43,169 nucleotides of DNA from a virus, in IMG/VR virus record IMGVR_UViG_3300046512_000362, positions 1 to 43,169 of that record; one strand, written 5' to 3'. Below the pieces are notes generated by a model that was not told where the DNA came from, ran no database searches, and worked only from the letters and a program-made list of their open reading frames with translations. Positions 15,803 through 42,848 of the stretch are shown here, one piece after another (position 1 is the stretch's first letter; every line of letters begins with the position of its first letter). A program made the translations under genes and the position numbers.

Positions 15803-17347
15803 TTATCGCGCCAGCGCCTTGAACGACGGCGGCATGAACGCGGGATGTATCGGGTTGGCCTCGGCCACCAGCTCGTCAGCCCGGCTGGCGTCCCTGTAGA
15901 GCCGTTGTGCCAGAAACAGCGCCGGCACCGAATGGGGCGTGGCAACCTGCACCATGCTGGCCAGGTCGGCGGCGCGTGCCGCAAGGTCCTGCACGACCGC
16001 CGTACGGACATCGTGCAGCGCTTGGTAGCTGTCATCCTGCCCTTGGTCGGCGGCGATCTGCATCTCGGCTTCGACCAGCTGGGTTACCTGCTGCCGGACT
16101 GCAACCGCATCGTCGGTGGACGACGGCGTGTAGCTCGCGCTCGCCTTCGCCAGCTCGATCACGCCTGCGCGCCGGAACAGATCCGCAGTCGCGCCAGCCA
16201 TCAATGCGGACGCCTGCGCACTGGTTGCCGGCGCCACGGTATTGACGGGGTACACAGGCTTAGCGAAACCGCCCGGCAGACCCGGCGCGGCGGCAGTCAG
16301 GCCCGTCAGCAGGCGCAACGCGTCCGGAGGCGACGGCGCCGCAGCAGCTACCGTGGCAACCAGGGCATGCACCGCGTCGACGTAAGCTGACAGCGCAGCG
16401 GACACCGCAGGCGGCACGCTGCTGCCAGCTGTGGACGTCTGCGCGCCGGCAGGTGTCGCACCGCCACCGGAGACACTTGCAAGCGCGCTGGCGGTGCTGG
16501 TGAGCTTAGTGGCCGCTACCGCCACCTTGGCGCGGTTGGCTGCGCCTTGCGCCACCAGGCTGTCGACAGTTGCACCAGACCCGGCGGGCCTTGTTGAATT
16601 GCTGCCGAACATGCGCCCGAACTCGCCGGGCATGGTTTGTACGAAGTGGTACAGGTTCGTCGCATCGTTGACCAGGCGCTGAGCGGCGCCCGCCCAGGTC
16701 GAGACCGCCGAGGTGGCCTGCGCCACCACCGCCAGTCCCGACTTCAGCGCGCCGGCAGCGGCGCTGATCAGGTTTGCCTTCGCCGCCGCCTTGGCCTTTT
16801 CAGCAGCACCGGCCACAGCCGACTGCGTATCGACCGCAGAATTTGGAAATATGCGCTTGCCCTGCTCTACGAACGAGAAGGCAAGCTCAAATACCCTGCC
16901 GCGATCCCAGCGCTCCGCGCAGCTCACGCCATCTGCCAGGCTGACGATCATGCGGCCCAGCGTAGGGTGCACCAGTTCGCCGCCCTCGACCGCGCCGGCT
17001 TCCTCACAAACTTTCAGCAGTTGGTCGCGCTGCGCGATGACGTCGTCGCCGACGATGTATGCCGTGAAGGCGATACGGCGCGCGGCGCGGCCCAGGTCCT
17101 CCACCCACACCGTGTCACGGAATGGGTATTCATGGATGACGCTGCGGCGCCCGAACTTGAGCTGCCCTTCCAGTACCTTGAAGGGCACGCCTCGAAACGA
17201 CGCCGGCCGCAGCTTAGAAAGCCACGATCCGGCGTCGCCACCGCCGCCAGCGCCCAAGTCGGCGGCAAGGCGGTTGGTGACGTTCTGCCCGCTCGAAACA
17301 GTGTTCGCCAGCGACTGAACGCCGCCGGTCAGTTGGTCAAAACTCAT
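15803..17347 (-). CDS. DNA circularisation / tail protein, Mu gp43 family
   Basis: A 514-aa baseplate/tail protein. The N-terminal DNA_circ_N-type domain is visible: WLSKLRPASFRGVPFKVLEG, RRSVIHEYPFRDTVWVEDLG and DDVIAQRDQLLKVCEEAG. The rest is alanine-rich and helical with a gap-like central region. The ATG at 17347 overlaps the tape-measure stop in ATGA; an open frame running further upstream is a shadow of that gene. The name comes from an old annotation of Mu; its likely role is in the baseplate hub, not DNA. Confidence 0.85.
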   Translation of the reverse strand: MSFDQLTGGVQSLANTVSSGQNVTNRLAADLGAGGGGDAGSWLSKLRPASFRGVPFKVLEGQLKFGRRSVIHEYPFRDTVWVEDLGRAARRIAFTAYIVGDDVIAQRDQLLKVCEEAGAVEGGELVHPTLGRMIVSLADGVSCAERWDRGRVFELAFSFVEQGKRIFPNSAVDTQSAVAGAAEKAKAAAKANLISAAAGALKSGLAVVAQATSAVSTWAGAAQRLVNDATNLYHFVQTMPGEFGRMFGSNSTRPAGSGATVDSLVAQGAANRAKVAVAATKLTSTASALASVSGGGATPAGAQTSTAGSSVPPAVSAALSAYVDAVHALVATVAAAAPSPPDALRLLTGLTAAAPGLPGGFAKPVYPVNTVAPATSAQASALMAGATADLFRRAGVIELAKASASYTPSSTDDAVAVRQQVTQLVEAEMQIAADQGQDDSYQALHDVRTAVVQDLAARAADLASMVQVATPHSVPALFLAQRLYRDASRADELVAEANPIHPAFMPPSFKALAR

Positions 17348-19638
17348 GGTGTAATCCCCGTTGGCATCGAATACGCGACCCGGACAGGCATCGACTGCCC
17401 GCCCTTCGTCTGTGCGCTGGCCGTTACGCCTGCAGGCAAGCCGTGGAGCGTCAGCGCCATCTCGACCTGTTGGGGTGCCGATTTCTGCTGCGTACCGGCA
17501 CCCGCCGCGCCCAGCTGGGCGGCGACGGCCTTGTTGATCATTTCGTCGCTGTACGCCGCGCCGTTGCCCTCGTGCTTGATGATGCTGGAGATCAGCGGTG
17601 CAACCGTCGCAGCGTCGTCCAGATTCAGGCGTTGCTTTGCGCCGAAGCCGGTACGCTTGACCACGTCCGAGATGTAGGCGCCGGTATCGTTTTCCGACGG
17701 TGGCGCCCACTTGCCGATGATGCTCTCGATGGTGTTCAGCCCGTGGACCTGCTGCTGAGCGCGCAGGTTCTTGATTGCCGCAGCCAGCCCAGCGTCAGCC
17801 GTGGGAAACATGGCGTAACCCTTCGCGTCGCGCGGCATGTCGCCCCACTGCCGCAGGTTGCCAGGATTATTGTTCCTCACCCCCAACGAAGCAGCAGTCT
17901 TCTGTGCAGACGTCTGCACTGTCGGCACGTTCGGCGCAGACTTCGGACCACCTGCAGCTGGCGCCACGGTAGCCGACACCTGAACCGGAGAATTGGCCCA
18001 GCCCTCGATGCCCAGGAATTTCAGCACCGACTTCGGCAGCATCGCTGCGACCGACTTGACACCACCGATAAGCCGGTTGATGAGGCTCTTGCCTGCGTCG
18101 TACAGATCGAAGTCAAACAACCACTTGGACAAGCCGTTGAACGCGTCGGCCAGAATCTTGACGGGATTGAATTCCCATAGCGCCTTGACGATCCCGTTCA
18201 GCCAGTTTTTCTGGAACGCCGCTTTGATGCCGGCGAATTTCTCGCTGAAATAGGCCGTGATGTTGTCCCAGTTCTTGTAAATCGCGTAGACCGCTGCGGC
18301 GACGGCCGCCGCACCAGCAATCAACCAGCCGACCGGCGTGGCAGCGATGGCCGCGCCGACGCTCGCAAACGCGACAGAAAGGCCGCCAAGCAACGATCCG
18401 ACCACGGGGATACCCACAGCCATATCGGCCAGCATCGCCGTGTACAGGGCCGCATTGGTCAGCCCCTTGACGATTGCAGGCACAAGCGACGCTTCCGTTG
18501 CCGCCGCCAACAGGCCGAAGCCGCGAATCAGAACCGGCACAGACACGACGGCGAGATTGCCAATAGCCAGGCCAAGGTTGATGACGCCTGCCAGCAACCC
18601 GGCATTCATGGCCAGCACGACGGCACCGGCAGCGTTCTGCCAGCCGCCGAACTTATCCACCAGCGACTCGATGTCCGCGCAGAACTGGCGTACCTGCTCA
18701 CCGATCTCTTTGAAGTCGAGGCGCGAGATCCACTGCGCCACGCCTTGCACGAACTCGGCCACCTTCGTCGAGATCAATTCGCGGTTGCCGGCGATCCACG
18801 CCGTCAGCTGCTCGATCAGAGGACCGATTATCGGCTGCAGCTTCTCGCCGATGGAGTTGCGCACGCCCTGCACGGCAATGTCCAGAAAGCTCAGCGACTC
18901 CTTGAACTTCACGGCGGCGGCCAGCGCCTCGCCACCCATGATGCCACCGAGCGACGCCACCTTGCGCTCGTATGCCTCGATGGCTTCCGGCCCCTTGCGG
19001 AGCAGCGGCAACGCTGCCTCCAGGCCAAAGGTGCGAGCGATGAGGCCCTGCACCTGTACATTCTTCGTTGCGGCAATCGCACCGGCCAGGTCGCGGAAGC
19101 CGCGCGCCGCGTCGATCGAACCGTCCTTCGTTTTGTGGATGCCCACGCCCAAGCGGTTCAGCACCACCAGCGCCTGCTGGTTGCGCCCGTACAGCGCATC
19201 CTCCATTGTGTCGCCCAGGCTTTTCAGCCCACCTTCCAGCTCCTGCGCGCCTACGCCGGCCAGCGCACCGGCACCGCGCAGCGCCTGCAGCTTGCCAGCG
19301 CCCATATCGAGCATTGAGGCAGTTCGCGAGATCTCGGAACCCATGCGACCCCACTCCGTCGCAAGCGCCGCGATCCCGGCCAGCGTTCCGCCCCCGGCAA
19401 TGATCGCCAGCGGTCCCAGCAACGAGCCCAGCTGGCTGCCAAGCTGGCGGACGTTCTTGACGACGCCGCCAACGGCCACCCCGACTTTGTCGAAGCCCAG
19501 TTCCCTTGTCAGTGCGCCGGCAGCTCGACGGATGTTCGTGATCGGCTGTGTGATGCGCGCCATCCCGGCGTTGATTCGGCGCACAACAGCAGTCGCGCGA
19601 TCAATCGCCGTGATCGTGATTTGAAAATTATTTGCCAT
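17344..19638 (-). CDS. Tail tape measure protein with C-terminal peptidoglycan-hydrolase-like domain
   Basis: A 764-aa Mu gp42-type protein that sets tail length and is ejected with DNA. The N-terminal region is helical and rich in Ala/Gly. Residues about 340-470 hold hydrophobic segments (AGLLAGVINLGLAIGNLAVV, PVGWLIAGAAAVAAAVYAIY) able to enter the inner membrane. Near residue 595 is RNNNPGNLRQWGDMPRDAKG, followed by NLRAQQQVHGLNTIESIIGKWAPP, a lysozyme-like module seen in tape measures and virion hydrolases. The start at 19638 is overlapped by the frameshift extension of the upstream chaperone gene. A GTGCAGACGTCTGCAC palindrome lies within the gene (reads VQTSA), just upstream of the hydrolase-like module. 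Confidence 0.9.
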   Translation of the reverse strand: MANNFQITITAIDRATAVVRRINAGMARITQPITNIRRAAGALTRELGFDKVGVAVGGVVKNVRQLGSQLGSLLGPLAIIAGGGTLAGIAALATEWGRMGSEISRTASMLDMGAGKLQALRGAGALAGVGAQELEGGLKSLGDTMEDALYGRNQQALVVLNRLGVGIHKTKDGSIDAARGFRDLAGAIAATKNVQVQGLIARTFGLEAALPLLRKGPEAIEAYERKVASLGGIMGGEALAAAVKFKESLSFLDIAVQGVRNSIGEKLQPIIGPLIEQLTAWIAGNRELISTKVAEFVQGVAQWISRLDFKEIGEQVRQFCADIESLVDKFGGWQNAAGAVVLAMNAGLLAGVINLGLAIGNLAVVSVPVLIRGFGLLAAATEASLVPAIVKGLTNAALYTAMLADMAVGIPVVGSLLGGLSVAFASVGAAIAATPVGWLIAGAAAVAAAVYAIYKNWDNITAYFSEKFAGIKAAFQKNWLNGIVKALWEFNPVKILADAFNGLSKWLFDFDLYDAGKSLINRLIGGVKSVAAMLPKSVLKFLGIEGWANSPVQVSATVAPAAGGPKSAPNVPTVQTSAQKTAASLGVRNNNPGNLRQWGDMPRDAKGYAMFPTADAGLAAAIKNLRAQQQVHGLNTIESIIGKWAPPSENDTGAYISDVVKRTGFGAKQRLNLDDAATVAPLISSIIKHEGNGAAYSDEMINKAVAAQLGAAGAGTQQKSAPQQVEMALTLHGLPAGVTASAQTKGGQSMPVRVAYSMPTGITP
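17904..17919. repeat. GTGCAGACGTCTGCAC palindrome, copy 2
   Basis: Exact 16-bp copy inside the tape-measure gene, read in frame as Val-Gln-Thr-Ser-Ala in a linker before the hydrolase-like module. Confidence 0.85.
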
Positions 19639-28331: not shown

Positions 28332-30347
28332 TTATGCCAGGCGCCTTGCCCGTTTCTTCGCTGGTGGCGTATCCACCGCGACTACTTTTACGAAGTCCGC
28401 CTTTTCCTCCAGCTGCGCGTCGCTGATTACCTCAGCAGGCTCGATCAGCGCTACCTGCGCGCCGAACATGTCGGCAATCGGAGGACACACAACGGATTCC
28501 AACTTGGCCCACATTTTTTCCGTGTACCGGTGCAAGTCCAGCATGTGCGCCGCGAATAGCGCGTACACAGTGCAATCCAGCACCTCGTTGCGTGGCTGGC
28601 GTTTGACCCAGCGGTATTGCTCGCCGCTGGCGGTCTTCTGCAGCACCCGTACCTCGGCGGTCAACTGCGCGTAGAACTCCGCCGGCAGCGCGGTCGAGAA
28701 ATGGATGTAGCCGGGACCGTGCTGCACCACCTTCAGGCGGCCATATATCAAGTCCTTCGCCGTGTCGGTGCCCACCATCCACAGCCGCACGCCGCGCTTG
28801 AGTACCTTGCCCTTGAAGTTGACGTCCTGCAGGCTGCTGCGGCCTTTCACCGGCTTGCCCTGCTGACTGTCGCCTTTCAGTGCGTGCACGCCTTCGCGGT
28901 TGCGTGTGCGGCAGTAGTTGTAAGCCTGGTGCGTAAAGTGGCCGCCGGTATCGATGCCAATGCCCTCGATGGCGAGCGACTGGCCGCCCGCGTGCGCGAA
29001 GCGCATCGACAGGTACGGATCGAGCTTTTCTTCCCACTCGCGCTCGTCGGCCGGGTTCGCATCGATGACGTGGTAATCGACTACCCACATTTCCTCGCCC
29101 TTGCCGATGGCCCACACGACCACCTCAAAGCGATTCGACTGCACGTCAACGCCGGCCACCAGGATCAGGCCGCCCATAGGCACGGTCCGCAGCTGATACT
29201 TTTCGGCGCGGGCGATCAACTCGTCCGCTTCCGTTTTCTCCACCGCTTCCTGCCAGGTCTCGCCCAGCGTGGTGTTGGTCCAGGTCTTCAGTTCACTAGT
29301 GTCGCCGGCGCGTGCTTTTTCGACGGCGGCGAGGTAGTCGCGCACGATTGCCTGCCAGGTCGCCTGCGGGCTGTAGGCCGTCCACACGTAGAACGCGAGA
29401 GCGCGCGGCGGCGGAACTATATCTCCGTCGCTGTTGCGGAACCGCGCATCCGCGTCGATCCACGTACCGTCTTCAGCAACCCAGCGCCCCTGTTGCCAGA
29501 CGCGCAGATAATCGGCCTGCGTGTACAGCACCGCGCAGTGCGGGCAAACCTGCCCCACCGTTTCAGGATCGCCGTTGATCCACTTCATACCGTGGCGCTT
29601 GTCTTTACCGCCCCAGGTGACCGCGTGGCGCTCGCCGCACGATGGGCACGGCACCTGGAACACGAAGTGCAGGTCGCACTGTTCCTCCCGCGCCTCGATG
29701 CGGCTGAAACCTTTCAACTTTGGCGTCGAGCCGTAGATTTCTTTCGGGAAGACAGCGCCCTCCACGCGCTTGCCGGCCAGCTTGTCCGGACTACCTTCCT
29801 TTTCAATGTCGATGTCAAAGCCGTCCAGCTCGTCCAGAATCGCGTAGTCGACCGAGATCCGGCGGTAACTGCGCGCGGCCTTGCCCCCCTTGGTGTAGAG
29901 CCGCGAGCCCAGGAAAATCTTGCCCTTGAGGGTGTCGCGCTTATCGTGGCCACGCCCCCTCGGGAACACCTCGCGCATGACCTTGACGTCGCGCAGCATG
30001 GTGTCCAGCTCTGTCTTAACAAACTCTTCGGAGTCGTCGTCCGTGGGTTGCCAGACCGCCTGGTTGCGGCGCTTGTGGTGCGCCACGTAGGCAATCAGCG
30101 CGACCAGCATTTTCGTGTAGCCCACGCGCGCGGACTTCTTCACGACGACGACCTCGATGTCGTCGTTGCTGAACGCATCCATAATCGCCGGCTGGAATGG
30201 ATAAGCCTCCCATGCCCCCTCGACGTACGAGGATTCCGCGCTCAGGTAAAAGTGCTTGGCCGCCCACTGGGACAGCCGGATTGGCTCCGGGACCTCAAGA
30301 CTCTTCAGTCCACTCCGGATCGCCCTCGTTATCTCGCTTAGATCCAT
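28332..30347 (-). CDS. Terminase large subunit, lambda gpA family
   Basis: A 671-aa packaging motor and nuclease. The ATPase site is clear: VVVVKKSARVGYTKMLVALIAY (about 66-87), almost as in lambda gpA, followed by QAVWQPTDDDSEEFVKTELD (Walker B region) and later ILDELDGFDIDIEKEGS (about 171-187). A zinc-like pattern CPSCGERH...CPHC (about 233-275) and the nuclease part with VAGVDVQSNRFEVVVWAIG (about 397-415) and IDTGGHFTHQAYNYC follow. Length is close to lambda gpA. Start ATG overlaps the small subunit by 53 nt. Confidence 0.95.
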   Translation of the reverse strand: MDLSEITRAIRSGLKSLEVPEPIRLSQWAAKHFYLSAESSYVEGAWEAYPFQPAIMDAFSNDDIEVVVVKKSARVGYTKMLVALIAYVAHHKRRNQAVWQPTDDDSEEFVKTELDTMLRDVKVMREVFPRGRGHDKRDTLKGKIFLGSRLYTKGGKAARSYRRISVDYAILDELDGFDIDIEKEGSPDKLAGKRVEGAVFPKEIYGSTPKLKGFSRIEAREEQCDLHFVFQVPCPSCGERHAVTWGGKDKRHGMKWINGDPETVGQVCPHCAVLYTQADYLRVWQQGRWVAEDGTWIDADARFRNSDGDIVPPPRALAFYVWTAYSPQATWQAIVRDYLAAVEKARAGDTSELKTWTNTTLGETWQEAVEKTEADELIARAEKYQLRTVPMGGLILVAGVDVQSNRFEVVVWAIGKGEEMWVVDYHVIDANPADEREWEEKLDPYLSMRFAHAGGQSLAIEGIGIDTGGHFTHQAYNYCRTRNREGVHALKGDSQQGKPVKGRSSLQDVNFKGKVLKRGVRLWMVGTDTAKDLIYGRLKVVQHGPGYIHFSTALPAEFYAQLTAEVRVLQKTASGEQYRWVKRQPRNEVLDCTVYALFAAHMLDLHRYTEKMWAKLESVVCPPIADMFGAQVALIEPAEVISDAQLEEKADFVKVVAVDTPPAKKRARRLA

Positions 30348-30813
30348 CGGGGTCTTCCATATCGAATTGAGCCGAGGCGGCGATGTTGCGCGCCTTGGTA
30401 ATTTCGGCGGTGATGATTTCGATGTCCTCAGCTGTTAAGTTCTTGCTGCGGCGCTTGATCTTGACGGGCACCGCCTCCAGCACCGCCGCGACCTTGCGAC
30501 CGATAGCGGCGACGGCTATTTCCAGCAGCACAACCGGGGCGTTTTCCTTCCGCGTCTCCGCGTTCTGCATTTCGATCCGTTCGCGCTGGGCGCGCGCGAG
30601 GGCGGCGCGTTCCGTGGCCAGGTCGAGATCGCCGGCAGCGGCCCGGCCGGCGGCCTGCTCGCGCAGGTGCGCACAGTAGGCGTGCAGCCAAACTGCCGCC
30701 GGCTGGCCCCGCAGCAGAACGTCGCGCTTCAGCAGATCGCTGACCGCTTGCTGGCTGATTCCGACCAGGTCGCCGAATTCCGACTGGGTCATGGTCTCAG
30801 CGAGGTTCACCAT
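30295..30813 (-). CDS. Terminase small subunit, lambda Nu1-like (DUF1441-like)
   Basis: A 172-aa DNA-recognition subunit. An N-terminal helix-turn-helix (MTQSEFGDLVGISQQAVSDLL at about 8-28) is followed by a charged helix (ERAALARAQRERIEMQNAETRKENAPV) typical of Nu1-type proteins and an acidic C terminus. Its long overlap with gpA suggests tight translational coupling. A cos site would be expected nearby upstream (30814-30929) but I could not identify one. Confidence 0.88.
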   Translation of the reverse strand: MVNLAETMTQSEFGDLVGISQQAVSDLLKRDVLLRGQPAAVWLHAYCAHLREQAAGRAAAGDLDLATERAALARAQRERIEMQNAETRKENAPVVLLEIAVAAIGRKVAAVLEAVPVKIKRRSKNLTAEDIEIITAEITKARNIAASAQFDMEDPDGSKRDNEGDPEWTEES

Positions 30814-31852: not shown

Positions 31853-32710
31853 TTGGAACTTACCGACTATTTTCAATCACCGCCAGCCGACAGGGTTTTC
31901 TACCACTACACCAGCGTCGATACCCTGATCAATGTGGTTTCGCACGGGACATTGCGCGCAGGCCACGCCGCGTATATGAATGATTCAATGGAATTGAAGC
32001 ATGCGCTCAAAGTGCTTGAAGAGACGCTGCTGCCGTTGACCGTGTTCGGTGAAATGCATGCGCTAGATGTACGGTTTTACATGGAGCTAATCGAATGGGT
32101 CGGACTCATAATCGATACCTCCCATCCCTGCTTCATATTTTCACTCTCCGAAGAGGCGAGCCTGCTAAGCCAGTGGCGCAGCTACACAAAGGCAGGAAAG
32201 GGAGTATCAATCGGTTTCAACGCGGATCGCCTTAGGAAAATCGCGTCACTCAATGAGTTCGTGCTCGCGCGATGCCTCTATGACGAGGACGCGCAAAAGG
32301 TGTTAATGCACAAACTTGCCACACACCTCTATGACACGTTCGATGAGTCTGGCGCGCAGCCAACAAAGGAAGCTAGGTTCACTCATTTCGAGACATCCCA
32401 ACGCGATATTTTTCTCACGCTTGCATTAATTAAGCACAAGGCGTTTTCGGAAGAAAAGGAGTGGCGCCTGATTGCTTACAACCGTCACAAGCCTGAGGCA
32501 ATTGGTTACAGGGAGGGGCCCTTCATGCTGGTCCCATACGTCGAGATTGATCTCAAAAAGATAGGTCCGGGCCCACAACTATTTGACTATGTCATCCTTG
32601 GTCCCACGCAGCACCGCGAACTGGCGCTCAGCGCAGCGAACGGCTACCTAAAGGCCAAAGGATTCTGTCCCTTTGTAACAGCAACAGACATACCATTCAG
32701 GCACTGGTGA
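31853..32710 (+). CDS. DUF2971-type protein, prophage cargo
   Basis: A 285-aa protein with the DUF2971 signature: RVFYHYTSVDTLINVVSHGTLRAGHAAYMNDSMEL (about 14-48), FIFSLSEEASLLSQWRSYTKAGKGVSIGF (about 97-125) and KAFSEEKEWRLIAYN (about 200-214). Start is TTG at 31853 with AGGGGA 8 nt upstream. It is the only plus-strand gene in the late-control region and stands apart from phage functions, so it is probably a moron expressed in the lysogen. The HYT and E-E-x-E-W-R elements are spaced as in some ADP-ribosyltransferase-like folds, but the biochemical role of the family is not known to me. A defence role is possible. Confidence 0.8.
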   Translation: MELTDYFQSPPADRVFYHYTSVDTLINVVSHGTLRAGHAAYMNDSMELKHALKVLEETLLPLTVFGEMHALDVRFYMELIEWVGLIIDTSHPCFIFSLSEEASLLSQWRSYTKAGKGVSIGFNADRLRKIASLNEFVLARCLYDEDAQKVLMHKLATHLYDTFDESGAQPTKEARFTHFETSQRDIFLTLALIKHKAFSEEKEWRLIAYNRHKPEAIGYREGPFMLVPYVEIDLKKIGPGPQLFDYVILGPTQHRELALSAANGYLKAKGFCPFVTATDIPFRHW

Positions 32711-32817: not shown

Positions 32818-33393
32818 TCAAGGAAGCGTCATTTCGACAGTAGGCACGGGACACCCCGGCAGGCAAGTTGTAGAGCGAATGGTAGCCGCGTCTCCAAGTC
32901 TTATCAAGACCCTTTGTAGATTTTTCTCAGCCTTCGCAATAACCAGCGGCACGTGCGGGCCACGGACACCGCGCAGGAAGCGTCGGATTTGCGATGCTGG
33001 CCAGCGCTGGATATAAAGGCTCTTGAGCGCTTGTCGCTCGTTATAGTCGCCCAGCGTTCGCCATGCCGCCTCAACCAGCCATGCATCCAGCACATTCGCC
33101 GACACCAGTGGACTGAGCGGCTTGTATTTTTCGTCCAGTAGTTCCTGCGCCGGCGGCGCTTCGCTGGCGCGGAGATGCACATACAGCTTCGCCCAGCCGG
33201 CGCAATACTGCGAAGCGCCACCGGCGTTGGTCGATCCGTGAACCACCTTGCGCCAGTTGTCCATCCGGGCGATGAACTCTTGACGGAAATCGGATTCCTC
33301 GCCCATTACTTGTGCGCGCCGCTGCTGTACCTGCTGAGCGACCACCGCCACCTCAGCGAATACCACGCCATCTACTTCAATCTCGACACCCAT
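32818..33393 (-). CDS. Putative late-gene antiterminator (Q-like)
   Basis: A 191-aa basic protein. The ATG at 33393 has AAAGG 7 nt upstream; an upstream TTG in frame lacks a site. The C-terminal part, LGDYNERQALKSLYIQRWPASQIRRFLRGVRG, has the look of a sigma-region-4 or helix-turn-helix DNA-binding unit. Two Cys are near the C terminus. It is the last gene before the late operon and lies just after the candidate origin, the place of Q in lambdoid phages. Combined with the terminator at 31629-31652 this suggests a Q-type factor, but sequence similarity to known Q families was not established by eye. Confidence 0.5.
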   Translation of the reverse strand: MGVEIEVDGVVFAEVAVVAQQVQQRRAQVMGEESDFRQEFIARMDNWRKVVHGSTNAGGASQYCAGWAKLYVHLRASEAPPAQELLDEKYKPLSPLVSANVLDAWLVEAAWRTLGDYNERQALKSLYIQRWPASQIRRFLRGVRGPHVPLVIAKAEKNLQRVLIRLGDAATIRSTTCLPGCPVPTVEMTLP

Positions 33394-33428
33394 GCCCAAC
33401 CTTTCTAATTTTGCCCGTATTTTCAACC

Positions 33429-33626
33429 CCCAACACTGCCAACATTACCCTCCACATCGGAGAGCCTGATTTTTACTAGCTTTGTTGACAGTATTGATAG
33501 TGTTGATAGTTAAATTTGAATTGATATAAAAATTTATCCGCCGCCCTGCTACTTTATTTCTGCGCCAGCCTATACGTGCGCGTGGGTGAAATTTAAACCG
33601 CCAATACTGCCAATACCGCCAACATC
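33429..33626. repeat. Clusters of 9-bp iterons with AT-rich stretch; candidate origin
   Basis: Three groups of tandem 9-mers occur. At 33429-33446: CCCAACACT, GCCAACATT. At 33485-33511 in inverse orientation: TTGACAGTA, TTGATAGTG, TTGATAGTT. At 33600-33626: GCCAATACT, GCCAATACC, GCCAACATC. An AT-rich segment (about 33511-33536) lies beside the middle group. TCCACATCG at about 33451 and CGATGTGGA at about 33667 form an outer inverted pair. The region follows the primase-helicase gene and contains no ORF, consistent with a replication origin. Confidence 0.6.
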
Positions 33627-33678
33627 CCCAGTATTCATGCGGGTTTGCGATGTGGGGGGTTTGCTACGATGTGGACGG

Positions 33679-36258
33679 TTAACCCTCAACATCGACAAAG
33701 CCCCTGTTTTTGTACGACTTGAGCGATGACTCGAACAGAGCGCACGCCGACTCGGCCCACTCGCGCAGGTTCTTACCTTCCGGCTGATCGCCAACCAGGA
33801 ACACGATGCGCTGCTTGACCACAGACCCGTACTCGTACTTGATCGGCTGCTTCTTCAGCACGGCGCCGGCGTAACGCTCGACGGAAGGGCTGAACATGGT
33901 CTGCGTCGTGTACCGCGACTCGCCCGAACGGTTGCACCAGGTTTGAAAGGCTTCGTACAGCTGCGTGACACCTACCGTGATAAAGGGCAGCGGCAACAAG
34001 CCGGTCGACCATTCGCGGTAGAAGCGCTCGGCCGGCGCTAGGCTCTTTTCGATCAGGCTGTCTTTCGCCTGGTTGTAGATCGGCTTCGTGTGTTCGTTGA
34101 AGTCGCCCATGTCCAGCTCGTACATCAGGTAGTAGTAAAACGCCTCGATGCCGCCGGCGTCGATCTCGTTGGCCACGCTAACGTAGAACTCCTTGTCCAT
34201 CGCCGGCGGCGTCCACACCACCAGGTAGCGGCGGTCGGTCTTGTCCAGGGCCAGCGGCTGCAGCTCGTTGGACAGGAAGACGAAGTTCATCTGGTTGCGC
34301 TCGCTGTGTTCCGGCAGGCCCTTCGGGTTGATGATGATGGTGTCGCCCGATACCAGGTACTTCAGCTTGCCTTTCATCTGCTTCAGCTCGGCCCGCGTGA
34401 CCACTTCGTCTGCCACCAAGAACAGCTTCATGGATGCCCAGTCATTGAACGGCGCTTCCAGCTGCTGATTGCCGATCACGTAGCCGTATTTTCCGTAGAT
34501 GGCCTTGATGACCTTCTCGAAGAAGAAGTTCTTACCTGAGCCTTCGTCGCCGTGCATGATGATCGATGTCTCCATCTTGGCGCCGGGATTGCGCAGCGGG
34601 TAAGCCAGCCAGCGCGAGATCCACTCGTACAGATCGTCGTTGCCGTCGCACAGGTGCGCCAGCAGTCCCTTGATCTGTGTACAGCTGCCCTGCTTCGGCT
34701 CCATGTGCCAGCCGTTAAACAGGTTGACAGTCGCTGTCGGGCCGCTGCGCGCAGGGCTTGGCGTTTCAGTAGGATCGAAGACGATGTTTTCCTTCAGCAC
34801 CCACTTGCGCGCCTCGCCGCCCCAAAACTTCATCACGTCATTGTTCTGGACGATGATCCGCATTGCCGACAGCTTCATCAGCTTGCGGTGGCGGCAATCC
34901 CATACTAGATCTTCGCCGTAGATCAGGATGAAGTTATCGAGGACGTCCTCGACGGCCGCCCAGTGTTCGGCGCCGTAGACCTTCTTCGGCTTCTCTTTCT
35001 TGGCCACGGTTCCCGCCCCCTCGCCCCCGGCGAAAAGTGGTGCGCTCTCGCCGAACGGGATGTCGTCCAGGCCTGCCGGCTGGCTGTCGTCGTCAGCCAG
35101 CGGATCGTCGTAGCTGGCCACTATCGAGTCGACGGCGGCCGTGAACGCATCAGCGGCGCCACCAACTGCCGCTTCGACGACTTGGTCGTCGTTCTCGGGG
35201 GCCTTCGCCCCCGCTTGAATTAACTCCTCTCCTCGCGGGGCAGGCCCCGCGCTGATTTGGCCGCCGTCGCTTCCCGCCGGGGGCGGGGGGGCGACGGCCG
35301 AGCCGACAGCTTCGCTTCCGCTCGGGGGGCGGGGGGACAAAGAGCCAGACTTGATAGGAGGAGGAAGGACCGAGCGCGGCGGCTTCCAGCCACCATCAAT
35401 GCCCATTTTGAAAATGGTCGCCTCGGTGATATTGACGCCGCGTTTGCCGAACGACGCCCAGCGCTTTTTCAGTTCTTCTTCGCCGCCGTAGTTATCTGCG
35501 CGGGAGGACCAGTAGTCCCACACGCGAAAGCCATTTTCGCCAAGGGCGCTATATAGCGCCATCCCGACACGAATCCATTGGTCATGGCCCTCCGGGCTGA
35601 TGTACGCCAGGGCGGCGTCAAGACGCGCGCGAAGGTCGCTTGCGCCGGGGGGAAGGGGGGCCGACGTATTGGCACGCGCTGGAGTAGCAGCAGGACGAGC
35701 ACCACGGACGAGCACGCGCAGGCGGTCAAGCTCAGCTTCCGAAACGGCGTTGATCGTGTCAGGCGATCCGGCGAACTGGCGGCCGGTGAACGTGAAGAAC
35801 TGGCTGGAGCAGAACACCTCCAGGCCGATGTCGTTCGACTTAAAGGTCGTGGTGGCACCGGCGACAATGATGTGGACGCCAGTGCCCGAAGGCGAGTATT
35901 CGGTGTACGAGTTGCAGCCGGCAATGGTCTGCATCGCCAGGTCGCTGACCTCCCCTGTCTCCGGATCGATGCACTTGTCGATGTCGACGCCGATCAGGCC
36001 ATCGCCAGGGAGAAACGCAAAGCCGATGCCCGTGTAGGTACCATTGGACGCGGCCAGCTTGGCCAGGGCGACGTCGAGCGTAACCAGGCCGCTGCGGTCG
36101 GCTTGGTCGCCCTGGACGCCACGGCGCCGCTTGCCGTTCATCCAATACGGAACCTTCAGCTGCTTCTTCTTCGCCGGGTTCGGGTTCGGCTCGAAACGCC
36201 ATACGAGCCATTGTGGCCGCTCACGCAGCTCTTGTGGAATAGCGTCAAAATCAGGCAT
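33679..36258 (-). CDS. Primase-helicase fusion (PrimPol domain plus SF3 helicase)
   Basis: An 859-aa replication protein. Residues 1-200 form a bifunctional primase-polymerase-type domain with catalytic GVDIDKC (D92 and D94) and SPSGTGVHI (about 122-130). A PriCT-like helical segment follows (about 205-275, including GHDQWIRVGMALYSALGE). After a proline- and glycine-rich linker (about 290-410) comes an SF3 helicase with Walker A GDEGSGKN near 570, LFLVADEVV (Walker B) and a later arginine in DKTDRRYLVVW. The ATG at 36258 overlaps the upstream gene by 8 nt; an in-frame TTG three codons earlier is less likely. It can prime and unwind at the adjacent iteron region. Confidence 0.9.
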   Translation of the reverse strand: MPDFDAIPQELRERPQWLVWRFEPNPNPAKKKQLKVPYWMNGKRRRGVQGDQADRSGLVTLDVALAKLAASNGTYTGIGFAFLPGDGLIGVDIDKCIDPETGEVSDLAMQTIAGCNSYTEYSPSGTGVHIIVAGATTTFKSNDIGLEVFCSSQFFTFTGRQFAGSPDTINAVSEAELDRLRVLVRGARPAATPARANTSAPLPPGASDLRARLDAALAYISPEGHDQWIRVGMALYSALGENGFRVWDYWSSRADNYGGEEELKKRWASFGKRGVNITEATIFKMGIDGGWKPPRSVLPPPIKSGSLSPRPPSGSEAVGSAVAPPPPAGSDGGQISAGPAPRGEELIQAGAKAPENDDQVVEAAVGGAADAFTAAVDSIVASYDDPLADDDSQPAGLDDIPFGESAPLFAGGEGAGTVAKKEKPKKVYGAEHWAAVEDVLDNFILIYGEDLVWDCRHRKLMKLSAMRIIVQNNDVMKFWGGEARKWVLKENIVFDPTETPSPARSGPTATVNLFNGWHMEPKQGSCTQIKGLLAHLCDGNDDLYEWISRWLAYPLRNPGAKMETSIIMHGDEGSGKNFFFEKVIKAIYGKYGYVIGNQQLEAPFNDWASMKLFLVADEVVTRAELKQMKGKLKYLVSGDTIIINPKGLPEHSERNQMNFVFLSNELQPLALDKTDRRYLVVWTPPAMDKEFYVSVANEIDAGGIEAFYYYLMYELDMGDFNEHTKPIYNQAKDSLIEKSLAPAERFYREWSTGLLPLPFITVGVTQLYEAFQTWCNRSGESRYTTQTMFSPSVERYAGAVLKKQPIKYEYGSVVKQRIVFLVGDQPEGKNLREWAESACALFESSLKSYKNRGFVDVEG

Positions 36259-36682
36259 CAGCAGCAACCGCTCCTGGACGATACTCGATACGCTGGCCAG
36301 CCATCAGTGAAGGGATAGCACGATACTCGTCGCCCTCCGGGCGCTGGGGGCGCGGGGGAAAATGCTTAGCGCGATTCAGCGGTTTCACAGTGCCCTTGTA
36401 CGGAGCGCCTACCGGTTCAGCCGGCGCCTGTGGCTGGGCATGAACTTGCACACCCAAGTAGCTGCGTCCCGTGGAAGTGACCGCGCAGAATGCCCCCGCC
36501 ACCTCGATCAAGCCGGCACGCTGCAGGCGGTCTACAACATCCCTGCTGAAGTTCAGCTGGCTGCCACGCCAATCCACTACACGCATCCACGCAGGTACAA
36601 AGGACTGGCCACCTATGTTATGGAGCGCGCGAAGGCCCATATGAGCGGCGCTATCACGGCGCGGCAAATCCAATTTAGCCAT
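36251..36682 (-). CDS. Winged-helix-like phage protein
   Basis: A 143-aa basic protein. Residues about 40-80 (LNFSRDVVDRLQRAGLIEVAGAFCAVTSTGRSYLG) look like a winged-helix DNA-binding unit. The C-terminal part is proline-rich and basic (KPLNRAKHFPPRPQRPEGDEY). The ATG at 36682 overlaps the YmfL-like stop by 8 nt. Coupling to the primase-helicase suggests a replication-initiator or loader role (inference); no family was recognised. Confidence 0.55.
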   Translation of the reverse strand: MAKLDLPRRDSAAHMGLRALHNIGGQSFVPAWMRVVDWRGSQLNFSRDVVDRLQRAGLIEVAGAFCAVTSTGRSYLGVQVHAQPQAPAEPVGAPYKGTVKPLNRAKHFPPRPQRPEGDEYRAIPSLMAGQRIEYRPGAVAADA

Positions 36683-37166
36683 GAGCCACCTCGCGCTGCG
36701 GCGCCTCAAACTTTACCGTCGAGGTGCGCGGGCAGTAGACGCTAAACATCAAGGCGAGAAGCGTTTCGGTTTTGCGATGAAGAGCCTTGCCTTGCGCCTG
36801 CAGCTGCGCGCGCTCGTTGTCGTCAATGACACCGTCAGCGATAGCGGCGGTGAAGGTGGCGAACATACCCCCCAGTTCCGCGTAGTTCTCATTAAACATG
36901 GTCTGGATCGAGTCCGGCTCGAGTTCGTCAATCGAAGGCAATTTCACGAATGTGCCACCGCTCTCGGCGGCGATTGCCTCCGCGAAGTAGTTGCCGCCCG
37001 ACAGCTGCTGCAGCGACAGCGCGTCGCGCGTCGAAAGCTGCCAACCCTTGTTCTCATAGACGCGGCTGCGCAGCGAAGCTTCGCTCATGCCCAGGTAAGC
37101 GGCAGCGACCGACCAGGTGCCGCTGATATTTGAGATCGTTTTTAAGACTGCGTTCCGGATTCCCAT
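36675..37166 (-). CDS. YmfL/CII-like phage regulatory protein
   Basis: A 163-aa regulator. The N-terminal helix-turn-helix (WSVAAAYLGMSEASLRSRVYENKG at about 18-41) and the following RDALSLQQLSGGNYFAEAIAAESGGTFVKLP match the YmfL family of CII-like proteins in e14-type prophages. The C-terminal half is helical and may oligomerise. It is the second gene of the leftward operon after the Cro-like gene, as cII is in lambda, so it probably activates lysogenic transcription. Confidence 0.8.
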   Translation of the reverse strand: MGIRNAVLKTISNISGTWSVAAAYLGMSEASLRSRVYENKGWQLSTRDALSLQQLSGGNYFAEAIAAESGGTFVKLPSIDELEPDSIQTMFNENYAELGGMFATFTAAIADGVIDDNERAQLQAQGKALHRKTETLLALMFSVYCPRTSTVKFEAPQREVAHG

Positions 37167-37216
37167 AAACTGCCTTTTTATTGAGGTTTTTGAAACTGTC
37201 GCCTACCTGTAAACTT

Positions 37217-37471
37217 CTAAATAACTCTTGGCAGGGCAGCACAGCAATCACAAGTGCTACGGAGGTAAGCCCAATCAACATCGGGCCGAAGCGTTTCGCA
37301 TAGAACCTTGCGGCGGGACTCGCGCTCGATGCGGATGCACAGACCCTCGCCCAGCTGCTGATTGATCGAGATTGCCTTCCGGAGATAGCGCTCCGTGGTC
37401 TGGCAGGCCGAGCAAAAAGCGGCGCGGTCACCCTTCGGCAAGCAATTTAGAAATTTGAGTAAGTTTTCCAT
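37217..37471 (-). CDS. YdaS/Cro-like DNA-binding protein
   Basis: An 84-aa Cro-type regulator. NCLPKGDRAAFCSACQTTERYLRKA (about 8-32) and ESRRKVLCETLRPDVDWAYLRS (about 47-68) match YdaS-like phage Cro proteins, whose helix-turn-helix replaces the usual one with 'YLRKai'. Five Cys occur, unusual for such a small DNA-binding protein. The start ATG at 37471 coincides with the predicted transcription start, so the mRNA seems leaderless; no other Met is available. It is divergent from the CI-like gene across three operators. Confidence 0.82.
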   Translation of the reverse strand: MENLLKFLNCLPKGDRAAFCSACQTTERYLRKAISINQQLGEGLCIRIERESRRKVLCETLRPDVDWAYLRSTCDCCAALPRVI

Positions 37472-38932: not shown

Positions 38933-39444
38933 TCCTCGCAAGGCCCCCATGCCTGACGCTCGCCGACGGCACATATCAGGACATCGCAGCAGCGCTCACC
39001 GCCTCATTCGACACGCTCGCTACGGCAGCCGGCAACGCTGTCGAACTTCTTTCGGCAGCCGGCTTTGCCGGAATGACAGGCGATACCGCCGACGATCTGC
39101 GCCTCGCCATCGCTCGCCAGCAGCATGTGCTGTCCGAGTTCTGCGTCAAGGTGCGCACCACTGCGGAAACCACCGTGTACACAGCCCAGGCTGAGACGGC
39201 CTACCAAGCGTACGAGGAGGCGGCGACAAGGCAAGGCGACACGCCGTGCGGCATTTCCGTGCGGCCGGCCGAACCCGATTTGGCATCCCTGTCCGCCGCG
39301 CACCGCACCTTGCGCATTGCCGGCTCGCTCGACAGCGCCCTCAAGAATCCAACCCTAAGCGTAGCCCTGCACTCCTACGCACGCAAACACCCGCGCCGTG
39401 CCGCTGCCGACTACAAGCAGCTGGCCGCGAACGACATCGATTGA
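38929..39444 (+). CDS. Hypothetical alanine-rich helical protein
   Basis: A 171-aa protein, mostly helical and alanine-rich (ALTASFDTLATAAGNAVELLSAAGFAGM, AQAETAYQAYEEAATRQGD). No family recognised. ATGA overlap with the previous gene and 14 nt before the ParB-like gene place it firmly in the operon. Possibly a DNA- or ParB-accessory protein; this is inference. Confidence 0.6.
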   Translation: MILARPPCLTLADGTYQDIAAALTASFDTLATAAGNAVELLSAAGFAGMTGDTADDLRLAIARQQHVLSEFCVKVRTTAETTVYTAQAETAYQAYEEAATRQGDTPCGISVRPAEPDLASLSAAHRTLRIAGSLDSALKNPTLSVALHSYARKHPRRAAADYKQLAANDID

Positions 39445-39458
39445 ACGGAATCACATAC

Positions 39459-41360
39459 ATGACCAATGCACTGACCACCTTGCCAGCTCCAACCGTCCCG
39501 GAGCCCGCCGAAAAGAGGATCGTTGTGGACGAAGTCGTCTTTGAAGATGGTAGCCGCTTCGGCAACTACAACCTGGTGCACATCCGTATCTCCCGCACCA
39601 ACCGTAAGCGCTTCAACCAGGCGAAGCTGAGCGAGCTTGCGGCAAGCATCCTGTCCAAAGGACTTGCCCAGCCTATCCTGATTCGGCCAGTTACGCCTAC
39701 CGCCGACGAGCCGCAGTCGTTCGAGATCGTCGCCGGCGAGCGTCGCTTCCGCGCCTGCATCATTGCCGGCCTGTCGGTTATTCCCGCGTTCTGCCGCAAC
39801 CTGAGCGATCAAGAGGCGCTTGAGCTGCAGATTCTGGAGAACCTGCAGCGCGACAATCCGCATCCGCTTGAAGAGGCAGAAGGTTATGAGCGCCTGATGA
39901 TGAAGCACGGCTACACGGCCGACCAGCTGGTCGACAAGCTCAACAAGAGCCGAAGCTATGTCTACGGTCGCCTGAAGCTGTGCGCCTTGAATCTCGAAGT
40001 GCGCGAACTGTTCCTCGACAACGAGGAACACCTGCAGGCGTCGACCGCGCTACTGATCGCCCGCATTCCGCTGGCCAAACTGCAGACGAAAGCGCTGAAC
40101 GAAATCCTGCGTCCCAACGGCCGCGTGGATGATGAGCCGATGTCGTACCGCAAGGCGAAGGAATGGCTGCAGCAGAACTACATGCTGGATCTGCGCAAAG
40201 CCATATTCTTGACGGACGATGCAAAGCTCGTCAAGACCGCCGGCAACTGCAACAAATGCCCAAAGCGTGCCGGCAATCAACCCGAAGTATTTGAAGGCGT
40301 GGATGCAAACGTCTGCACCGATCCTGAATGCTTCAAGGAGAAGACTGCCGCACACTACGACAAGCTGCACGCGGACGCGCTGAAGCAAAAAATCCCGGTA
40401 CATGAAGGCCAGGAAGCGTACAACACGTGGAGCGAGATCTACCGTGCCGGGAGTGACCTGGTATGTGATGAAACGCCTTTGTACACGTTCGAGCGCGTGG
40501 CTCCGCATACCGGCTTATCTGGCACTTTGGCTACCCGCCTGAAGCGCGAACAGCTGCCGCAAGTCGCTGCCTATACTCGCAGCGAGAAGGGCATCATGCA
40601 GCCGCTGTATGTACGCGCGGTCGCACAGTCCTCCCTGGAACAAGCCGGCGCGTGCGAGACGGCCGAAGTGCGCGAAGCACGCACGCAAAGCGAGCAAAAA
40701 GAGCTGGTCAAAGAGTCGCCGAAGAAAAAAGCGAAGGAAGCTGCGCAGCATGCCGCCGAAGCGAGCAAACAAGAGCGCGCAGAAGAAATCACCAGCAAGC
40801 GCGTCGCCCTTTACCGGAAAGTGCGCAGCTCGACACAGACCGGCTTTAGCTTGGAAATGATCCGCGAAGTGGCGAAGCTGCTTGTCCGGGAAAAACCGCT
40901 GCCTGACGATCTTCTCGATGACCTGTACACGTTTGAAGACCGCAGCGATGACGGAATTTGCGCCTATATCGACCAGGCAGAATTCCCGCAGATCGAACTG
41001 CTGATGCTCGACCTGATGATGGGCGAACACCTCAGCGTCGAACACTGGGAGGTTGACCGCGCTGATGACAGCTACGGCGTCGACGCGCTTAATGCAATGG
41101 CAAAACTAGAACGCATCGACCCTGGCCAAGATCACCGTCAGGCAGCCCAGGCGCCGGCAGAACCTGCGCTCGCACAGTCAGCTGATGCAGCCCCACCGGC
41201 AGCCAAAGTCGCACGGCCAAAGCTGCAGCTCAAGGCCAAACCTGTCGACATCGAGCCGGTGCCAGTAGCCGACGCCGGCCCGGTCATCAAGGTGAAGAAG
41301 CACCGCACTGTCGAATTGAAGCCAGCAAGCGCTTGGCCATTCCCAACTCAATCAAACTAA
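39459..41360 (+). CDS. ParB/Spo0J-like protein with Cys cluster and long C-terminal tail
   Basis: A 633-aa ParB-family protein, start ATG at 39459 (an open frame runs upstream through the previous gene). Residues 38-115 form the ParB/Srx domain with FEIVAGERRFRAC (the GERR motif of the CTP pocket at 93-96). ILENLQRDNPHPLEEAEGY (about 125-143) and a helix-turn-helix (YTADQLVDKLNKSRSYVYGRL) follow. C264, C267, C286 and C291 (CNKC...CTDPEC) could bind zinc. The tail has a Lys/Ala-rich coiled region and a Pro/Ala-rich end. Twice the usual ParB length. No ParA gene lies nearby, so it may act in regulation, replication or DNA compaction, not partition. Confidence 0.88.
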   Translation: MTNALTTLPAPTVPEPAEKRIVVDEVVFEDGSRFGNYNLVHIRISRTNRKRFNQAKLSELAASILSKGLAQPILIRPVTPTADEPQSFEIVAGERRFRACIIAGLSVIPAFCRNLSDQEALELQILENLQRDNPHPLEEAEGYERLMMKHGYTADQLVDKLNKSRSYVYGRLKLCALNLEVRELFLDNEEHLQASTALLIARIPLAKLQTKALNEILRPNGRVDDEPMSYRKAKEWLQQNYMLDLRKAIFLTDDAKLVKTAGNCNKCPKRAGNQPEVFEGVDANVCTDPECFKEKTAAHYDKLHADALKQKIPVHEGQEAYNTWSEIYRAGSDLVCDETPLYTFERVAPHTGLSGTLATRLKREQLPQVAAYTRSEKGIMQPLYVRAVAQSSLEQAGACETAEVREARTQSEQKELVKESPKKKAKEAAQHAAEASKQERAEEITSKRVALYRKVRSSTQTGFSLEMIREVAKLLVREKPLPDDLLDDLYTFEDRSDDGICAYIDQAEFPQIELLMLDLMMGEHLSVEHWEVDRADDSYGVDALNAMAKLERIDPGQDHRQAAQAPAEPALAQSADAAPPAAKVARPKLQLKAKPVDIEPVPVADAGPVIKVKKHRTVELKPASAWPFPTQSN

Positions 41361-41564: not shown

Positions 41565-41785
41565 GCATGTTTCTTGACGCGGACGAGGTCAGGGATTTGA
41601 CGAACCGCATACAACGCCAGGCACAGGCCAAAATGCTGCGAAGCTTGGGAATCACATTCAAAGTGCGTGCCGATGGCAGCGCCCTGGTGCTGCGCTCGCA
41701 CGTTGAGAAGGAACTCGGCGGCGGCGCACCAGCTGCAGCACGCACCCGCGAATTCACGCCGAACTGGGGAGCTGCGAATGCCTAG
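41561..41785 (+). CDS. DUF4224 protein next to integrase
   Basis: A 74-aa DUF4224-type protein (FLDADEVRDLTNRIQRQAQAKMLRSLGITFKVRADGSALVLRSHVE), a family almost always found just upstream of phage integrases. Role unknown; it could regulate integrase translation or act as an excision accessory. Overlaps the integrase start by 8 nt. Confidence 0.85.
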   Translation: MSMFLDADEVRDLTNRIQRQAQAKMLRSLGITFKVRADGSALVLRSHVEKELGGGAPAAARTREFTPNWGAANA

Positions 41786-42848
41786 GAAGCGGAACAAAGA
41801 GAACGCCGGCTTGCCATCGCGCTGGAAGCACGCACACGGCGCGTACTACTATCAAGTGCCGCCAGGCATGGAGAGCCGCTGGGATGGCAAAAAGCTGTTC
41901 CGACTTGGTGCGACGCTACCGGAAGCCTACGCCGAGTGGGCCAAGCGCCTGGAGGTGGTCGACGCCGCGAAGTCGATAGGCGCCCTGCTTGACCGCTATG
42001 CTCTTGAAGTTGTGCCGACCAAGTCGCCGCGCACCCGCGTAGAAAACCTCCGCGCAATCAAAAATCTAAAGGCCGTGTTCGGCGCCGCGCCGCTGACCTG
42101 GTTACGGCCGCAGCACGTCTACCAGTACGTCGACACGCGAAAGGCTAAGAAGATCGCCGCACATCGGGCCGTCGACGTCTTATCTCACGCATTCACAAAA
42201 TGCGTGGAATGGGGTCTGATCGACCGCCACCCGTTTAAGGGCGAAGTGCGCCTCAGCGGAGAGGAGTCCCGCACGCGCTACGTAGAGGACTGGGAGTTAA
42301 TCGAGGTACTCGCGCTGCCGAGTAAGCGCAAGAAGGGCAGCGTGCTGATGATGCAGGCTTACATCCGCCTCAAGCTACTCACCGGCATGGCGCGCAGCGA
42401 TCTGCTGCGCCTGAAGCCGGACGTACATTTCAAGGATGACGGAATCCACATCACGCGCCACAAGACCGCCGGTAAGACAGGCAAGTCTACGATCTACGAA
42501 TGGAACGACGACCTGCGAGCTGCAGTCGCGGCCGCCATCGCTGTACGCTCGGCCGCCAGCTCCGCGCTGTTGTTCTGCACCCGCGACGGCAGCAGTTACA
42601 TTGACGAAGTGAAAGAAACCGCATCAGGCTGGGATTCCATGTGGCAGCGGTTCATGGTGCGCATCATGGAGGAAACCAAGCTGGAACATCGCTTCACAGA
42701 GCACGACCTGCGTGCGAAGTGCGCAAGTGACGCGGAGTCACTGGAGCATGCGCGCGCCCTGCTTTCACACGTCGACAGCCGTGTAACTGACCGCATCTAT
42801 CGTCGCAAACCAGAGCGAGTTCAGCCGGCGAAAATCTCGTTTGAATAA
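41778..42848 (+). CDS. Tyrosine recombinase integrase
   Basis: A 356-aa phage integrase. N-terminal arm-binding part (1-60, with LPSRWKHAHGAYYYQVPPG) and core-binding helices (65-155) precede the catalytic domain. Catalytic residues are visible: R206 in TGMARSD, K229 in RHKTAGK, H309 and R312 in EHDLR, H331 in LLSHVD and nucleophile Y341 in DRIYRR. The ATG at 41778 lies inside the end of the DUF4224 gene. It is the last phage gene on the right; the attachment site should be in 42849-43085. It shares the operator-controlled operon promoter unless an internal promoter exists. Confidence 0.93.
   Translation: MPRKRNKENAGLPSRWKHAHGAYYYQVPPGMESRWDGKKLFRLGATLPEAYAEWAKRLEVVDAAKSIGALLDRYALEVVPTKSPRTRVENLRAIKNLKAVFGAAPLTWLRPQHVYQYVDTRKAKKIAAHRAVDVLSHAFTKCVEWGLIDRHPFKGEVRLSGEESRTRYVEDWELIEVLALPSKRKKGSVLMMQAYIRLKLLTGMARSDLLRLKPDVHFKDDGIHITRHKTAGKTGKSTIYEWNDDLRAAVAAAIAVRSAASSALLFCTRDGSSYIDEVKETASGWDSMWQRFMVRIMEETKLEHRFTEHDLRAKCASDAESLEHARALLSHVDSRVTDRIYRRKPERVQPAKISFE

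Follow-up and report, generated by a model that had tools for sequence, protein, structure and literature searches.

The repeat array at positions 33426–33691 of the window, by which we mean the whole 43,169-nt stretch of viral DNA analyzed here (IMG/VR record IMGVR_UViG_3300046512_000362), is very likely a phage replication origin, whose initiator would be the adjacent helicase; this enzyme would act by way of the winged helix at its C terminus, probably in two hexamers, and without DnaA. In the course of events that we infer, including the binding, the origin activity, the hexamer stoichiometry and the order of the steps, the half of the protein that carries the DUF5906/SF3 helicase would bind the 9-bp-spaced units through the C-terminal winged helix, probably with one hexamer for each of the two groups of six units that flank a central gap. 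This pair of hexamers would open the AT-rich or alternating central segment, and the attached primase, which is a separate protein in some relatives, would start synthesis without the host DnaA. The participation of two hexamers is suggested by the presence of six units per side together with the hexameric nature of the helicase. An origin beside the primase–helicase gene had been proposed in an earlier note on this DNA, and this proposal is supported by the arrays found in 127 of 133 relatives, and by origins with a similar plan that have been investigated experimentally in SaPI, PICI and SCCmec elements.

The phage of the window is temperate, with a gene layout that comprises an integrase gene (41667–42848), CII-like and repressor-like regulators, the primase–helicase gene, and terminase and tail-sheath genes. 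The array lies in the gap between the primase–helicase gene (33679–36267, minus strand) and the next open reading frame (32818–33426, minus strand), which is where the earlier note had placed the repeats, and it starts within the last codons of the primase–helicase gene. The large terminase subunit TerL is encoded at 28332–30347, and the preceding open reading frame (30295–30813) is likely TerS by its position.

Scoring with a PWM gave 12 units of a TRTTGRCGGT-like 10-mer, arranged in 9-bp steps, with six units on each side of the central gap. From the primase side, unit 1 (TGTTGAGGGT, 33682–33691, minus strand) is located inside the last codons of the primase–helicase gene, and it is followed by two inverted units on the plus strand, which are unit 2 (TGTGGACGGT, 33670–33679) and unit 3 (TGTGGGGGGT, 33651–33660). 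Next comes the left tandem triplet of head-to-tail units at 9-bp steps on the minus strand, consisting of units 4 (TGTTGGCGGT, 33615–33624), 5 (TATTGGCAGT, 33606–33615) and 6 (TATTGGCGGT, 33597–33606). Past the central gap there are three inverted units on the plus strand, also at 9-bp steps, which form the right triplet (unit 7, TGTTGATAGT, 33501–33510; unit 8, TATTGATAGT, 33492–33501; unit 9, TGTTGACAGT, 33483–33492), and then three outer units on the minus strand within 33426–33456 (unit 10, TGTGGAGGGT, 33447–33456; unit 11, TGTTGGCAGT, 33435–33444; unit 12, TGTTGGGGGT, 33426–33435). Hence, the repeats of the eight 9-bp units described initially are real, although their number was too low. 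The outer inverted 9-mers TCCACATCG (33451) and CGATGTGGA (33667), which had been noticed as a frame of the region, each occur once in the window. When up to two mismatches were allowed on both strands, the best 9-mer family had 8 non-overlapping copies, as compared with a maximum of 7 and a mean of 4.5 in 200 dinucleotide shuffles. In the stricter count with one mismatch the window alone was not above the shuffles (4 copies, with 4 in the best of 20 shuffles), owing to the degeneracy of its units, and the argument depends on the relatives. The spacers between the outer units and the triplets (33625–33650 and 33457–33482, also in loci L004 and L057) contain conserved non-repeat elements, CGCAAACCCGCATGAATAC and, in near relatives, AAAGCTAGTAAAAATCAGGCTCTCC; by eye, the CGCAAACCCGCATGAATAC element resembles a short hairpin with a changing stem in several loci.

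The AT-rich stretch reported previously is real, as the 60-mer at 33481 (33481–33540) has 77% AT, and few 60-mers of the window are richer in AT. This candidate unwinding element overlaps the right triplet, and in the window the AT peak of the array is located between the unit sets and at the right set. The central gap contains AT-rich DNA and also a GC-rich tract of alternating purines and pyrimidines (TATACGTGCGCGTG, 33571–33584), a 14-base run that was equaled in length in 4 of 100 shuffles. Alternating runs of a length that no more than 5 of 100 shuffles attained were present in 86 of 133 representatives of the relatives described below (35/45 in the clade of the window, 2/4 in that of L058, 24/26 in that of phage pAN, 0/7 in that of Mcat1, 9/34 in that of S1, and 16/17 in that of H4907), and a role of this tract in the formation of Z-DNA or of a hairpin is a conjecture. 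Only 42 of 129 representatives had their AT-richest 40-mer inside the central gap, so the description of the units as flanking an AT-rich region is only partly general. Among 44 loci of the window clade this 40-mer was central in 22, in the right triplet in 12, and in the right spacer in 10. A turn of the GC skew, to which the earlier note had looked as a sign of an origin, was not observed at the array, as the skew falls steadily along the window. The consensus DnaA box TTWTNCACA was found in none of 132 representative arrays, the window included, where only the consensus was searched and degenerate boxes may remain; this agrees with an initiator that also serves as the helicase.

Neither a distant blastn search with the array nor a megablast search with 23 kb gave a match among the named phages, and for this reason relatives were sought through the protein. 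They were found in seven loci of bacterial genomes (Duganella, Massilia, Janthinobacterium and a Formivibrio MAG) and in 63 viral contigs, and the set was widened by five more scans, which used helicases of other phages or contigs as seeds. The gene end was usable in 309 loci from the scans, and 420 bases downstream of it were available in 305, of which 238 were unique and 133 non-redundant after near-duplicates were recognized by k-mer overlap. The data showed that arrays located directly 3′ of genes of DUF5906 (SF3/D5-like) helicases exceeded all 20 shuffles in 127 of these 133 relatives, as judged by the best 9-mer. By clade, these were 39/45 for the window, 4/4 for L058, 26/26 for pAN, 7/7 for Mcat1, 34/34 for S1, and 17/17 for H4907 together with NrS-1. 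Six representatives, including the window, did not exceed the shuffles in this strict count. Among 521 stretches that served as controls and came from the same contigs, the highest count was 6 copies. The named phages with an array include Pseudomonas pAN/PG1, Stenotrophomonas phage S1, Moraxella phage Mcat1, Halomonas phage H4907, and the well-studied deep-sea phage NrS-1, the reference for this enzyme, in which 10 exact copies and 2 copies with one mismatch of TTACACTTT are present within about 330 bp after the primase gene. The titles, abstract beginnings and passages of the open-access literature that were covered contained no description of such arrays in phages with a DUF5906 helicase. 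The array of NrS-1 (7139–7452 of locus L076, about 17063–17376 of AB746912.1) lies directly after the polymerase gene and under the annotated open reading frame NRS1_29, and that of S1 (2454–2804 of locus L073) similarly lies under the annotated gp2. These two reading frames may represent over-annotation of an origin.

The layout of the array is conserved across the lineages while its word changes. Both 9-bp triplets were present in 41 of 44 representatives of the window clade, with all 12 slots filled in 20 of these 41, and the outer units of this clade were located mostly about −36, −55 and −67, and +36/37, +48 and +57 from the triplets. The orientations of the outer units vary among the clades, with the pattern +++-++ and ---+++ on the two sides in pAN-type arrays, and ++++++ and ------ in many S1-type arrays, while the number of six units per side recurs. 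Across all clades (n = 129) there were 6 units on the left in 71 representatives, 6 on the right in 73, and exactly 6 on both sides in 41, where the per-side counts depend on the score threshold. Loci L310, L314 and L278, with fewer than 8 units, were left out of these and the AT counts. Unit calls omitted L070 (40% identity, a partial match), calls with one seed omitted L028, which has a short flank, and the eleven loci misfitting this seed (L058–L063, L065, L066, L069, L072 and L073) were also left out; representatives of these eleven were called with their own seeds.

The proposed initiator is a protein of 862 amino acids, which by Pfam and PHROG matches contains an AEP-type primase at its N terminus, a PriCT-2 domain (residues 218–288) and a DUF5906 helicase domain of the SF3 type (residues 571–680). 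The AEP primase and the DUF5906 helicase are thus present in one chain, as in proteins of the NrS-1 type. The AlphaFold2 model of the helicase half (pLDDT 84.6) ends with helices at residues 745–754, 767–781 and 789–803, followed by a two-stranded wing at 804–825. This region (residues about 745–825, nucleotides 33793–34035, minus strand), modeled with block pLDDT values of about 79–95 and the order helix–strand–helix–helix–wing, is predicted to form a winged helix, and is the proposed repeat-binding domain. The closest solved structure was the NrS-1 CTR (Z 27.4, 370 residues aligned, rmsd 5.5), followed by the SaPI5 primase–helicase (Z 17.8, 368 residues, rmsd 5.8), with both alignments reaching into the C-terminal domain, and then by African swine fever virus and poxvirus relatives; five phage loci of the scan were not part of the structure alignment. 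The NrS-1 tail family PF22762 had no match in the window protein at an E value of 0.001, yet the model aligns to NrS-1 through residue 718.

The primase part differs among the clades, with AEP and PriCT-2 domains in the window, Toprim in pAN and S1, a zinc ribbon and Toprim in Mcat1, and a separate Toprim protein in H4907. A scan of 9 proteins detected DUF5906 in 8, and the remaining one was the separate primase. The primase family is exchanged between AEP and Toprim while the helicase and the repeats stay. The earlier note had regarded loss of the repeats from relatives with a conserved primase as evidence against an origin, and the opposite was seen, since the repeats were kept even where the primase domain had been replaced. 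Swaps of the primase domain family at the N terminus of the conserved helicase were also observed within the clade of the window (L007, L017–L026, L029–L035 and others).

To identify which protein part follows the repeat sequence, the words of the relatives were compared with their proteins. In the clade of the window the words were TTGASGGT, which is the class of the window, TGAANGGT, TGATGGGT and TTGGGCGG; the other clades had TGTTGGGT, TGTGCGGG, TGTGCAGGG, TCAGACAG/TTCCGACA and GGTTRCGCG, and two lineages of environmental phages had TTGACGGT and TGAAGGGT, respectively. For 49 of 54 loci, which remained when those with open reading frames shorter than 800 amino acids were left out, the rank correlation of word distance was 0.64 with the helicase, 0.57 with the C-terminal domain and 0.22 with the N-terminal primase. 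The partial correlation was 0.02 for the primase given the C-terminal domain, and 0.54 for the C-terminal domain given the primase. Consistently, 18 loci keep the word class of the window with an unrelated N terminus (distance of at least 0.97), while L003 shares its N terminus with the window (0.36) and yet has a different word. The N terminus of PHROG 2249 was found in L019, the sole one of the 18 loci checked, and also in three loci that carry different words. When the four word states were placed on the helicase tree, 3 changes sufficed, which is the minimum, as compared with a mean of 21.2 in shuffles, and the state TGAA appears in two separate places. Within the helicase half, the partial correlation was higher for the AAA part given the C-terminal domain (0.455) than for the reverse (0.298); all parts of this half are linked by phylogeny, and it may therefore be the AAA+ part that the word follows. 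Localization of the recognition to the C-terminal domain by an association test of alignment columns, in which L055 was left out of the word classes, was rejected, because the raw values were higher in this domain but its enrichment was lost after control for column variability (p = 0.66). The word tracks the helicase half rather than the primase or the upstream winged-helix protein, and these comparisons of sequences point to the helicase half as the reader of the word, with the AAA+ part and the C-terminal domain not separated.

The earlier note had suggested as a possible iteron binder the product of the upstream gene (36251–36709, minus strand, 152 amino acids). The array would then be an origin or operator bound by this protein, with the helicase recruited second, which we consider improbable. 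AlphaFold2 indeed predicts a winged helix for this protein, and among the 37 representatives of the window clade for which upstream sequence was available, 27 had it near the primase–helicase. However, no such protein was detected in representatives of the other array-bearing clades (tblastn limit 1e-4), and its correlation with word distance, 0.27, fell to 0.056 given the helicase C-terminal domain (26 loci), as compared with a partial correlation of 0.564 for the helicase half. The winged-helix prediction stands, while the distribution and covariation of the protein disfavor the binder role, so that this proposal is most likely wrong.

It is still less probable that the units serve as positions on the template where primer synthesis by the primase domain begins. 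The polymerase of NrS-1 does require a recognition sequence of 8 nt, TTTGGTTA, given later as GTGA/GTGG (PMC7102993 and PMC8718748), and the SCCmec primase is described in passages of PMC7581432 as preferring start sites at its origin. This reading was rejected, because the word does not track the primase domain (the partial correlation of 0.02) and the arrays survive the exchange among AEP primases, Toprim primases and a separate primase. Moreover, the repeat of NrS-1 itself is TTACACTTT and not TTTGGTTA, and twelve units in both orientations appear to be more than priming needs.

A packaging (cos/pac) site with repeats for the small terminase subunit is very unlikely. The array of the window is upstream of the terminase genes and that of S1 lies just before TerS, but in the window further genes separate the array from the terminase. 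The record of pAN opens shortly before TerS (71) and closes shortly past HNH (39408 of 39466), with its array (about 37130–37455) lying about 2 kb inside, and this position of the record end, together with the tracking of the helicase by the word, speaks against the packaging role. There is hardly any likelihood that the array is a regulatory intergenic region only, composed of a terminator of the primase operon and repressor operators. A hairpin followed by T's was seen by eye inside the array of Moraxella phage Mcat1, but scans of the window array for terminators, promoters and Rfam families gave no site, and 12 units that flank a gap at constant distances would go beyond an ordinary operator.

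An origin bound by the adjacent helicase, as proposed here, has several counterparts in mobile elements. The SaPI Rep helicases and SCCmec Cch2 are reported to recognize repeats directly downstream of their own genes through the C-terminal domain (passages of PMC7581432), and a pri-ori fragment of E. coli EcCICFT073 was kept as a plasmid better than versions without pri or ori (passages of PMC6092414). As in the descriptions of SaPIs and PICIs in these two sources, the primase–helicase gene is directly followed by a putative origin, in which short iterons form two sets and AT-rich DNA lies between them. In the present data the position immediately 3′ of the helicase gene applies to the window and its relatives, and the two unit sets to the 41 of 44 window-clade representatives. 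The SaPI5 protein is also a close fold match across the whole helicase half. The recognition of the origin by the helicase C-terminal domain is described for SaPIs and PICIs in the same passages, while for the window the winged helix is a prediction. In contrast to these satellites, which lack structural genes and need a helper, the window belongs to a phage coding for a terminase large subunit, a tail sheath and a circularization protein. It also differs in its 9-bp unit, the layout of about 6+6 units, the alternating purine/pyrimidine tract, and words that vary with lineage. Overall, the comparison of sequences gives good support to the view that the array is a putative helicase–iteron origin of the SaPI/PICI kind that occurs in temperate phages, where its word is specific to the lineage. 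The plan with two iteron sets has been stated to be confined to PICIs (in a passage of PMC6092414), which the phage arrays contradict, and this bears on the question of where the satellites obtained their replicon.

The SCCmec helicase Cch2 likewise binds direct repeats of a putative origin downstream of its operon, on which its C-terminal domain was tested, while it differs in having, as reported, three iterons of 5 nt and another primase, CCPol-MP (passages of PMC7581432). The archaeal plasmid pRN1 is similar by description, as its replication-protein gene is accompanied by an essential sequence of 166 bp downstream (PMC4234260). The NrS-1 polymerase has the same domain order, a hexameric DUF5906 helicase, the best fold match and an array directly after its gene. 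Two copies of the 8-nt primase site are the only possible origin named in the discussion of PMC7102993, and the Tail domain of NrS-1 has been termed a novel fold. The main texts of PMC7102993 and PMC8718748 contain no word beginning with "repeat", and that of PMC7102993 has none beginning with "iteron". The window differs from classical iteron plasmid origins, as its units have a period of 9 bp and there is no consensus DnaA box. The iterons of those origins (RepA, RepE, TrfA) are 17–22 bp long and accompanied by DnaA boxes. The SV40 T antigen and papillomavirus E1 are SF3 helicases that bind paired sites and form double hexamers, while their origin-binding domain is N-terminal and their sites are different.

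Tentatively, and with somewhat more doubt than confidence, we propose a broader view, in which DUF5906/D5-like helicases would carry their own origin cassette of about 6+6 nine-base units, one for each subunit of a double hexamer, with a melting segment in the middle that is AT-rich or alternates purines and pyrimidines. The pair of helicase and origin would be inherited as a unit while the primases are swapped and the word stays private to each lineage, and such elements, including NrS-1 and its Tail domain, would form a general class of phage replicators. If this is true, NrS-1 would be a biochemically tractable system for studying SF3 double-hexamer assembly that is already in hand, and for this model enzyme of the family there would be a proposed site together with a function of the Tail domain. 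For the large group of temperate phages that are linked by this helicase, the array provides a directly testable putative origin, and models of a double hexamer can be checked for agreement with its 6+6 layout. The lineage-specific words offer a natural series of matched helicase and site pairs for working out recognition.

Three other genes of the window were noticed. Between the gene on the origin side and the terminase region, on the opposite strand, a DUF2971 protein is encoded at 31853–32710; it has weak matches to the PADLOC candidate PDC-S31 (E value 4.5e-07) and is possibly the product of a cargo or defense gene. Beside the integrase gene, positions 39246–41360 encode a protein of 704 amino acids with ParB N-terminal and HTH domains, which is large for a ParB protein. 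A gene of a D12-class adenine methyltransferase is located at 5229–6017.
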